Part shown: piece by piece, positions 3,649 through 22,274 of the stretch
Position numbering within the stretch: position 1 is the first letter of the stretch
How the letters are laid out: the number at the start of each line of letters is the position of its first letter
Made by a program: the position numbers and the translations under genes
Virus record (IMG/VR): IMGVR_UViG_3300032092_000111
Span: 1-37,192 of that record
Origin: a virus
Direction: 5' to 3' (one strand)
DNA length: 37,192 nucleotides
Notes under the pieces: model-generated
Seen by the model: only the letters and a program-made list of their open reading frames with translations
Databases searched by the model: none
Told to the model about the DNA's origin: nothing

Positions 3649-3947
3649 ACTGTACCTCGATACGTTTTCCAGACAGCATTATCAGGATCATTCAGCCACT
3701 TGGCAAATCCAACGTCATCTACAATATGAAAGCCTCTCATAATCCCCATCTGGTTAAGTACATCAATAACCGTGAAAGGTATTCTGGCTACATGGTGCAG
3801 ATCGTTTAGATGTCCAGTTCTAGCTTTATCGAAATCTAACTGAGCCTTGTTAGCCTCAATGATCTCGGTTACATCCTGCTTCGTCTCGATGACAATCCCG
3901 CCGTCACCGTCCTCATATACTGTTTGAGTCCGTATCTGGTTACTCAT
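3645..3947 (-). CDS. Conserved head-region protein of unknown function
   Basis: 100 residues, soluble and mildly acidic, with no membrane segment. It begins MSNQIRTQTVYEDGDGGIVIET. The central RIPFTVIDVLNQMGIMRGF and C-terminal DDVGFAKWLNDPDNAVWKTY look like a compact alpha/beta domain. The same kind of protein follows the major capsid gene in related podovirus-like genomes, as far as I recall. It is the first gene after the strong hairpin at 3964-3987 and overlaps the glycosyltransferase gene by four bases. Function not recognised. Confidence 0.6.
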   Translation of the reverse strand: MSNQIRTQTVYEDGDGGIVIETKQDVTEIIEANKAQLDFDKARTGHLNDLHHVARIPFTVIDVLNQMGIMRGFHIVDDVGFAKWLNDPDNAVWKTYRGTV

Positions 3948-3963
3948 AAATCCTTTCGTAGTT

Positions 3964-3987
3964 CCCCCTAGCCCGTAGGCTAGGAGG
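3964..3987 (-). terminator. Strong hairpin after the major capsid gene
   Basis: On the leftward transcript a 10-bp stem closes a UACG loop, the very stable C(UACG)G class. One stem pair is G-U on the leftward RNA but a C/A mismatch on the opposite strand, which fits a leftward role. No U-tract follows, so it could be a weak terminator, an mRNA-stabilising 3' end for capsid mRNA, or a processing site. It lies 13 bases after the capsid stop. Confidence 0.7.
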
Positions 3988-18440: not shown

Positions 18441-18853
18441 AGATAACCCATCGCTTCGTTAATTCGCGTAAAAGCCGTTTTAAGCCGTTTTTTATCACCG
18501 TCTGATACCTGCCTACCCTCAGCCATATCAAACGCCGCTATGGACGTAATAAGGGCTTCAAAATGGATTATTTTCATTAGGTCTGTGGCATAGAAAGGAC
18601 GCTTGACAGGTTTATTGCCGTTATGGGGTGTAAAAGATTGATCTTTAGGAAACAGATCAGTCAAGTCCATGCCTACGGCTGAAACCACTTCGTAAGCACT
18701 ACAGCCAGCAAAGCACTTCAGCAGAATCCTGCCATCGTCAGTCTCGGTAATCGCTAGGCTAGGACGCTTATCCTCATGCGCTGGACAACAGGCTACCCAA
18801 TGACCACGTTTACCTTGGACTTTTTCAAGCTTGTTTAAGAAATCGCCAATCAT
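18437..18853 (-). CDS. CHC2-type primase zinc-finger protein
   Basis: 138 residues. ACCPAHEDKRPSLAI (C23, H26) and ILLKCFAGCS (C47, C51) form a primase-type zinc ribbon that reads the priming site. The C-terminal half (YATDLMKIIHFEALITSIAAFD) is helical. No TOPRIM/RNA polymerase domain is present, so the protein is only the recognition part of a primase or a regulator. Coupled by ATGA to both neighbours. The helicase lies two genes downstream. Confidence 0.8.
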   Translation of the reverse strand: MIGDFLNKLEKVQGKRGHWVACCPAHEDKRPSLAITETDDGRILLKCFAGCSAYEVVSAVGMDLTDLFPKDQSFTPHNGNKPVKRPFYATDLMKIIHFEALITSIAAFDMAEGRQVSDGDKKRLKTAFTRINEAMGYL

Positions 18854-19557
18854 AGTGGTCTCCTTGCAAAGCCTGTCTCAGTTAATTTCTGGTCTTTAGG
18901 CTTTAACCAATCAGCCTTAAAACCTTGCCAGCCTTGAGTACACATCTCTTGCATAGCCCTTTCCAAAGACCATCCAAGTTTTGTTGCCTCTTTAGCAATA
19001 CCGTCAATCACCGTAGGTGTAACTGGAGCTTTCTTAGTTTTCCTTAACGCAACAAAATCATTCCATGTGCTTTCGGAAACATTCTCAGGACAGGTAATAA
19101 TTATTTTTTTATTAGAAGATGAAGATGAAGATGAAGGGGTTGGAATTTGTTTATCCTCAATTTCAACCTTGTGGTTAACGTCAAGGTTAACCTTATCGCC
19201 TTTCATAAGAGCAGGATTGCCACCTAATTTCCCGCCTTTTGCCCTGATTTCTCTTAGGTTTTCGTCACGGATCATTCGTCTGGATATGATGACCCCATCA
19301 TCGCCAATGTCGTAAACACCAGCTACCTTGAGTTCATCTAACCAACCCTGAACAACCTCTAAGGTTTCACCAACCATACGAGCAAGGTTAGAAGGAAGGA
19401 TAACCTTATCGCCAACCTTCAGGTGTCCATAAGGATTACCTTCATGCATATAGCAGATCATGTCGATCCACAGTCCTCTTGCTCCTGTAGAACATGACCT
19501 GAGCGCAGTATCCCGCAACCAATCAGCAGGATAGAACTGGAAAGATGGTCTTTTCAT
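18850..19557 (-). CDS. Replication protein O / DUF1376-like replisome organiser
   Basis: 235 residues. The N-terminal domain (FYPADWLRDTALRSCSTGARGLWIDM, then PYGHL and LARMVGETLEVVQGWLDEL) is the winged-helix type found in phage replication initiators. A linker with a seven-Ser run follows (about residues 140-150). The C-terminal domain (WNDFVALRKTKKAPVTPTVIDGI... GWQGFKADWL) resembles helicase-loader tails. It probably binds the phage origin and loads the helicase. First large gene of the leftward block, so the origin may be in or near it. Confidence 0.78.
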   Translation of the reverse strand: MKRPSFQFYPADWLRDTALRSCSTGARGLWIDMICYMHEGNPYGHLKVGDKVILPSNLARMVGETLEVVQGWLDELKVAGVYDIGDDGVIISRRMIRDENLREIRAKGGKLGGNPALMKGDKVNLDVNHKVEIEDKQIPTPSSSSSSSNKKIIITCPENVSESTWNDFVALRKTKKAPVTPTVIDGIAKEATKLGWSLERAMQEMCTQGWQGFKADWLKPKDQKLTETGFARRPL

Positions 19558-19565
19558 GTGACCAC

Positions 19566-19781
19566 CTATACTTCTTCTTCAGTATGAATATCTATCCCAT
19601 TATTCCAAATTTCATTGATATACCCTTCGTTCGAATGAACCCAAGTGTGCATCTGTTGAAACTGATCCAATGTGATGTAAAGATAGATATTTCGTTGTGT
19701 CTCTAAAGAAAATTGTTTAAGGCAAATAAAACCTTCTCCAGTAACTGAAAACTCAACTCCGAGTGTATGCTTTAATTTCAT
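19566..19781 (-). CDS. Small protein, first gene after structured leader
   Basis: 71 residues from ATG at 19781, with GAGG six bases upstream. The upstream ATG at 19793 overlaps that ribosome binding site and is rejected. The sequence LGVEFSVTGEGFICLKQFSLETQRNIYLYITLDQFQQMHTW is a compact beta-rich fold with an acidic end; no motif is recognised. It is separated from the upstream sequence by a terminator-like structure (19797-19882), so its expression likely depends on read-through or on a conformational switch. Confidence 0.6.
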   Translation of the reverse strand: MKLKHTLGVEFSVTGEGFICLKQFSLETQRNIYLYITLDQFQQMHTWVHSNEGYINEIWNNGIDIHTEEEV

Positions 19782-19796
19782 AGCTTTCCTCAAATG

Positions 19797-19906
19797 AAAA
19801 AAGCCCTAGGCGAGACTCTCACCAGACTGCAGGTCTAGTGTTGGCGGACTGGTGGGTACCAGCAGAGTCCCGGCTAGGGCTTACCCAAACACGCCGCCAA
19901 GCGTGT
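19797..19906 (-). ncRNA. Structured leader RNA with terminator-like end and alternative pairings
   Basis: On the leftward RNA a small hairpin (19889-19906, 6-bp ACACGC/GCGTGT) precedes a long structure. The outer stem is 9 bp (19801-19809 with 19874-19882) and a second stem of 8 bp (19812-19819 with 19864-19871) contains a G-U pair that would be a mismatch on the other strand. Inside, bases 849-853 (offset 19000) can pair with 858-862 or with 821-825, which exclude each other. The 3' side ends in six U (19797-19802). This looks like an attenuator, riboswitch or small RNA in front of the 71-residue gene. Confidence 0.65.
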
Positions 19907-19911
19907 GTAAA

Positions 19912-20085
19912 TCATACTTTAACGTTACGCAGGTTGCAACTCCTGCATAAATCGTTATTCACGAACTGAGCTACTGACCTAGTTCGCTTACATCCCGGAC
20001 ATAACTTAGTTGCAAAGTTATAAATCGTTTCCGAGCCAGACCGTTCTAACCCGCGACGTAAGGGTTTTGAATCTTTGCTGTCCAA
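19912..20085 (-). CDS. Zinc-ribbon protein, possible C-terminal part of a frameshifted gene
   Basis: 57 residues if started at the TTG at 20085, which has GAGG eight bases upstream. The frame shows LCPGC and LCRSC, a two-knuckle zinc ribbon, within SETIYNFATKLCPGCKRTR and VAQFVNNDLCRSCNLRN. The other frame, from ATG at 20167, has a Lys/Pro/Gln-rich N-terminus and runs out shortly after their overlap. The two could be one protein split by a +1 shift near 20060. Function unknown; the zinc ribbon may bind nucleic acid. Confidence 0.5.
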   Translation of the reverse strand: MDSKDSKPLRRGLERSGSETIYNFATKLCPGCKRTRSVAQFVNNDLCRSCNLRNVKV

Positions 20086-22013: not shown

Positions 22014-22035
22014 TCTACGGGGGAAAACTTATTTA

Positions 22036-22255
22036 CAGACAAGTGAGTCTGGAAGGATAGATAAGCGAGTACCTCACCCTTATGGAGGAAAGCGGATACT
22101 AGGTCGATGTTAGCGCACCGACGAATTCCACTAGACGCAGCGATTACTCCTAACGCCTAGCTAGTGGTGGCGTGTAACCCTAGCAGCATACGCAATGACC
22201 TCCTTCGTGTTGTCTCCCGTGATTGTGAGTATGCGGACACCTCGGAAAGACGAGG
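22036..22255 (+). ncRNA. Candidate structured RNA between SSB-like and HTH genes
   Basis: Base-pairing stems in order: CAGAC/GTCTG (22036-22040, 22047-22051), ATAAG/CTTAT (22061-22065, 22079-22083), GTCG/CGAC (22103-22106, 22119-22122), CCACTAG/CTAGTGG (22128-22134, 22161-22167), GCGTGT/ATACGC (22170-22175, 22188-22193) and CCTCG/CGAGG (22240-22244, 22251-22255). GGAGG (22084-22088) can pair with CCTCC (22199-22203), closing a junction around the three central stems. No credible long ORF. No U-tract follows. It may be a regulatory or small RNA; the family is not recognised. It could instead be an untranslated leader of the HTH gene. Confidence 0.55.
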
Positions 22256-22274
22256 ATTAACCTAAGAGGAAACC

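Follow-up and report, generated by a model that had tools for sequence, protein, structure and literature searches.

A structured leader RNA ahead of a replication operon

The window, i.e. the whole stretch of DNA that was analysed, is a freshwater phage record of 37,192 bases. Its minus strand carries an operon whose first gene (19566–19781) encodes a protein of 71 aa without a PHROG match, and whose second gene (18850–19557, minus strand) encodes an O-like replication initiator (phrog_678, E 1.9e-18). A primase and a DnaB-like helicase follow, and the divergent arm holds Erf. A scan of 30 of the proteins of the window revealed no integrase, and a single small HTH regulator was the only repressor candidate. 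A gap of 260 nt also occurs between rightward genes (22014–22274), for which no same-strand ORF of at least 60 aa is listed.

Directly in front of the operon lies an RNA element (19905–19797, minus strand) of five helices and two pseudoknots, which begins at a promoter. The promoter (19911–19939, minus strand) consists of TTGCAA (-35) and TATGAT (-10) separated by 17 nt, with a predicted transcription start at about 19903–19905, and the predicted leader RNA is about 105–110 nt long. On this minus-strand RNA the hairpin P1 comes first (19890–19905, CACGC-TTGGCG-GCGTG), and its 6-nt loop UUGGCG (19900–19895) is the 5' strand of pseudoknot PK1. Two nucleotides further on, J1/2 (UGGGUA, 19882–19887) provides the 5' strand of PK2 and directly adjoins the terminator stem, whose 5' strands P2 (AGCCCTAG) and P3 (GGGACTCT) occupy 19864–19881, were assigned by covariation and contain a conserved single mismatch zone at 19873–19872. 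A single G separates P3 from the hairpin P4 (19849–19862, CTGG-TACCCA-CCAG), the loop of which, UACCCA (19858–19853), is the 3' strand of PK2. Then follow an invariant UC (19848–19847), J4/5 (CGCCAA, 19841–19846) as the 3' strand of PK1, an invariant C (19840) and the hairpin P5 (19821–19839), which is variable in both length and sequence and in relatives often has a GNRA-type loop. After a further G, the 3' strands of P3 (AGAGTCTC) and P2 (CTAGGGCT) complete the stem (19802–19819, from the fold and covariation), and a U6 run (19802–19797) forms the end of the intrinsic-terminator-like structure. The run is seen in the letters and in relatives, including four members that were found by a model and not by a DNA pattern.

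PK1 accordingly joins the P1 loop to the strand 3' of P4, and PK2 joins the P4 loop to the strand 3' of P1. The two hairpin-plus-3'-flank units thereby interlock, each loop pairing with the flank of the other unit, and the terminator stem P2/P3 encloses P4 and P5 in a three-way junction.

The initial annotation had described a 9-bp outer stem (AAGCCCTAG/CTAGGGCTT), an 8-bp inner stem (GGGACTCT/AGAGTCTC, with one G-U pair), a U6 run and a ribosome binding site behind it. All of these were confirmed on the minus strand, where the ribosome binding site reads GAGGA (19791–19787) and the ATG lies at 19781. An 84-nt stretch of this strand folds with -44.9 kcal/mol (z -6.4), which no dinucleotide shuffle equals, and the weaker fold of the plus strand (z -3.65) agrees with the leftward orientation that had been proposed. 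The promoter, the P1 hairpin, both pseudoknots, the three-way junction and the start at about 19905 go beyond that description. A G+C-rich hairpin that runs directly into a U run ahead of a gene is what is expected of an intrinsic terminator. A simple terminator scan did not pick it up, because the stem encloses a junction.

Relatives of the RNA in other viruses

We gathered 54 related loci by means of the O-like protein encoded behind the RNA, and several of these contained the same element in the same place. A first DNA pattern, combining the P1 hairpin, CCAAC and the U run, was run on IMG/VR, and only matches in which PK1 and P2 can pair were kept. This resulted in at least 105 non-identical members, falling into about 36 clusters at 85% identity; nine pattern matches in the viral set were clear chance matches and were dropped. 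A second pattern, silent on P1 and the P1 loop, returned 118 distinct sequences, 53 of which were beyond the reach of the first. The two patterns combined gave at least 158 distinct sequences, essentially all of them viral. An extra pattern that specified the letters of P5 proved too restrictive and gave one match. None of the loci searched contained a second strong match, so that each has one RNA.

Bacterial copies are few. In 84,980 bacterial and archaeal genomes a single true member, from an uncultured Burkholderiales bin (L269), was present among the 112 distinct pattern matches listed, and a model search of 300 Burkholderiales genomes found two. A role as a prophage immunity RNA was rejected on account of these numbers and of the 30 scanned window proteins, which include no integrase and, apart from the small HTH regulator, no repressor. 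Among phage records with similar DNA, only MW202462 and MW202544, both from a spring, contain the RNA.

Covariation supports the fold

Covariation analysis, which the initial annotation had proposed as a check, gave overwhelming support for all helices. In the 105 members of the first set, 99.2% of the cells of 34 pairs are standard pairs, and 26 of the pairs change on both sides. The covariation score of 0.614 was reached by no shuffle (0.180 when shuffled) and dropped to 0.095 or less when the strands were slid; the shuffle statistics are inflated by the relatedness of the members, whereas the slide control retains this relatedness and many different double changes are present. In the terminator stem P2/P3, 15 of 16 pairs have changed on both sides. 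Three P1 pairs and four PK1 pairs appear invariant in this set, as they were fixed by the search pattern.

The second set resolves these two elements. Its P1 arms covary (CGC/GCG, CCC/GGG, CAC/GTG, TGC/GCA and CTC/GAG), and the PK1 alternative UUGACG/CGUCAA occurs. The P1 loop and J4/5 (19846–19841) pair at six of six positions in all 118 members, a test in which the pattern prescribed the AAC in the target strand and the script chose the best-pairing hairpin loop. For PK2 the mean pairing score was 6.22, compared to 3.96±0.09 when loops were exchanged between members, and about 50 different complementary segment pairs were seen. The loop has 6 nt in 37 members; in these, 95% of the PK2 cells pair, and four of the six pairs change on both sides. 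Covariation thus shows that the predicted fold comprises P1, P2/P3, P4, P5 and two pseudoknots, wrapped by the terminator.

Conserved letters are concentrated at a few places. Invariant or nearly so are the CUG at and immediately above the top of P3, the UC after P4, the C after PK1 and the GAG before and in P3, and these near-invariant letters surround the junction. The length of P2/P3 is kept in nearly all members, and 96 of the 105 have a mid-stem mismatch at one of two adjacent positions. Hardly any conserved stretch remains unpaired in the alignment, and none is long enough (7 nt) to serve as a seed on another RNA.

A switch had also been suggested for this region, in which ACCAG (19849–19853) would pair with either 19858–19862 or 19821–19825, the latter being a CUGGU segment within P5. 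The letters are indeed complementary, but any partner of the second kind was found in only 9 of the 105 relatives, in some of them through a gapped 4-nt segment, and a cross-sequence control gave 5.0±1.7. Furthermore, the segment falls in the variable P5 hairpin, and forcing the alternative pairing costs 7.5 kcal/mol, which makes this particular switch highly improbable. Of the earlier interpretation, a functional structured RNA with a terminator-like end before the leftward operon therefore stands, supported by covariation, but the described switch is not conserved.

Promoter and operon context

The surroundings of the RNA are as regular as its fold. A -10-like hexamer is located 9–26 nt before the CGC of P1 in 103 of 104 members, compared to 20 of 104 in a control stretch. 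The -35 element is weaker, with a match of at least 4/6 in 51% of the members and in 26% with shuffled upstream DNA. A start codon is found 1–19 nt past the U run, mostly 10–17, in 102 of the 103 loci with an open frame. Conservation of this layout shows the RNA to occupy a promoter-like position, with a predicted next gene within 20 nt. With the start codon so near to the U run there is no room for a private promoter, so the mRNA of the operon contains the leader and the polymerase must pass the terminator.

The gene that follows varies. Judged from translations, it may encode replication initiators of several types, HNH and GIY-YIG nucleases, a ParB-like protein, a PolA-like exonuclease or small unknown proteins, and despite this changing next gene the RNA heads early or replication operons. 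Since the next gene differs so widely, the element serves the operon and not a metabolic gene. The upstream gene frequently encodes a small Cro/YdaS-type regulator, again as read from the translation. Together with the operon layout of the window, this makes the slot resemble the cro-to-O region of lambdoid phages.

Two further observations concern the flanks of the RNA. In the window a small frame with zinc-finger-like spacing (C-x2-C...C-x2-C; 19915–20085, minus strand) ends inside the promoter, its TGA overlapping TATGAT, and similar frames occur in L003, L063, L067 and L146. On the other side, the stretch of the ribosome binding site often has a complement in the 3' end of P2 together with the U tract, in the window at 19809–19782 (GGCUUUUUU/AGGAAAGCU) and in members such as L066, L105, L111 and L139; other types are UGGG/CCCA and AAUCC/GGAUU. 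The mean score of this complementarity was 7.57, compared to 6.57±0.13 when partners were swapped among members, with kinship uncontrolled in the comparison. Such pairing could hide the ribosome binding site in the readthrough mRNA when P2 is open.

A possible role in terminator readthrough

We give roughly even odds (a probability of about 0.5) to the reading that the RNA is a cis-acting leader that is transcribed from its own promoter at the head of an early or replication operon of the phage and controls whether the polymerase reads through the intrinsic terminator that the leader contains. The 3' half of the terminator would be made only after P1, PK2, P4 and PK1, which would hence form first. 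The 5' strand of P2/P3 would then be pinned at both ends, by PK2 without any linker and by P4 with one of a single nucleotide, and the 3' strand, still held by the polymerase, would have to wind round this doubly fixed strand, so that winding would be hindered. The base of the terminator stem would close late or poorly, and the polymerase would read into the operon. If PK2 is slow to form, melted or blocked, the 18-bp stem would be expected to zip and transcription to stop after about 108 nt. A protein, the polymerase itself or a ligand bound at the invariant junction (G, UC, C and G around P3/P4/P5/PK1) may set the balance. If the RNA switches at all, the conserved candidate would be PK2, formed by the P4 loop and J1/2, with its 5' strand running directly into the terminator stem.

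Modelling with rigid A-form helices is consistent with such a competition. In combination with both pseudoknots, a straight 18-bp stem clashes and stays about 8 Å short of closure, and the strain is relieved by one open base pair at the base of the stem or by a bend of 40–60 degrees at the mismatch; stems of up to 15–16 bp fit freely with both pseudoknots. According to the models the closed form would be possible but strained exactly at the terminator base, which favours competition. Strict geometric exclusion of PK2 and the terminator was rejected, as the strain amounts to only about 8 Å and a bend permits coexistence. A static, fully folded RNA in which the pseudoknots and the full terminator exist together is possible in these models, and the constant length of the stem would be expected of a static tertiary fold no less than of a switch.

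From sequence alone a riboswitch, an attenuator and an antitermination element cannot be told apart. One tentative and rather unlikely proposal is that no protein or ligand takes part. The reciprocal interlock of the hairpins would then lock the terminator's 5' strand topologically, and folding order during transcription alone would set readthrough into the operon, by an RNA-only antitermination unrelated to the put RNAs considered below.

Comparison with known RNAs

No Rfam family was matched at gathering or permissive thresholds, for the window (E up to 1) or for ten diverse members, and the models of c4 antisense RNA (RF01695) and Polynucleobacter-1 RNA (RF01718) gave no match to the window or to diverse members. 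With at least 158 distinct viral sequences and the covariation described above, the predicted RNA is a well-supported structured class that is absent from the Rfam release searched. Its fold, with two hairpins interlocked loop-to-flank and wrapped by a terminator, is not met among the families compared, the literature covered being that under open licence. The class opens an experimental way into the timing of replication genes in freshwater phages.

The int-alpA RNA (RF02996) deserves separate mention. Its gathering cut-off of 35.8 was not reached by the RNA of the window or of ten diverse members, and the one match in L061 is a separate element. In relatives that lack the present element, int-alpA RNA often occupies the slot right after the -10 box, and L061, L165 and L174 carry both RNAs, in L061 and L174 on divergent units. 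Like the present RNA, it is located after a -10 box and close before the first gene, in some cases behind a similar HTH gene, and its consensus has an outer stem round two hairpins followed by U residues. It differs in its core (CUAG, GAAAAG and CCUGCC) and has neither P1 nor the interlocked pseudoknots. The shared slot and the three loci with both RNAs make a common function plausible and suggest that int-alpA RNA belongs to the same functional slot as the present RNA. No description of the role of int-alpA RNA was found in the open-licence literature.

Antitermination of the put type was considered as well. The interlocked pseudoknot domain would in this case bind RNA polymerase and make it resist the RNA's own terminator first, and later ones thereafter. 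Lambdoid early genes lie behind terminators, and HK022 putRNA, which counters terminators, lies near a promoter, with putL just downstream of its own (PMC9378689). The present RNA is likewise structured and starts at the promoter of an early operon, and the occurrence of int-alpA as a second RNA class in the same slot, with two of the three shared loci having the RNAs at the heads of divergent units, fits such a function. However, putRNA is about 70 nt, consists of two stem-loops without a terminator in the fold and is present in two copies per phage, whereas the present RNA has five helices, two pseudoknots and a U run and is found in one copy per locus. As no sequence or Rfam relation to put tested positive either, we regard this explanation as unlikely.

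The promoter–terminator distance of about 108 nt would also suit a stand-alone sRNA equipped with a promoter and a terminator of its own. Such an sRNA would act in trans, on targets of the phage or the host, and the expression of the operon would be residual readthrough. A precedent is IsrK of the Gifsy-1 prophage, a phage RNA that lies in front of genes, likewise has its own promoter and its own terminator, and is at once a short terminated RNA and the leader of a readthrough mRNA, giving two isoforms (PMC4825925). IsrK pairs in trans, whereas in the present RNA, which gave no match in the Rfam scan, conserved internal pseudoknots take up both hairpin loops and both linkers, and neither the variable P5 loop nor any other unpaired part offers a conserved 7-nt seed. 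The c4 antisense RNA, although phage-encoded and structured like the present RNA (PMC2864571), similarly acts through free loops, which here are paired. Relatives in host genomes are moreover few, and a role in trans is thus distinctly unlikely.

A riboswitch, in which a small molecule at the invariant three-way junction stabilises or breaks the terminator stem, appears improbable. The compact conserved core, the covarying frame and the terminator do have the usual look of one, and the crcB and pfl motifs, which are terminator-gated riboswitches, are likewise structured leaders that overlap a terminator (PMC2864571). Those motifs precede related sets of cellular genes, however, while the gene downstream of the present RNA changes freely and is not metabolic. 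The aptamer would also have to lie inside the terminator itself, where the stem encloses the core, which is unusual.

Other structured leaders were encountered among the loci collected. Two more unrelated structured terminators (z -4.5 and -6.5) precede the same replication gene, in L018, L019, L020 and L021 just before the matched gene and in L042 at about 3830–3980. In both, the interior of the terminator loop (GGUUCUA; GCUUUCAAC) has its complement in a segment located upstream (UAGAACC; GUUGAAAGC). Yet another leader, also conserved and structured, was recognised by eye upstream of the match in L031, L038 and L039. Its outer stem is long (GUCUCCAUCG/CGAUGGAGAU), and internal stretches of the leader are, also by eye, complementary to the upstream GGUGGUAUUUGAAAU.
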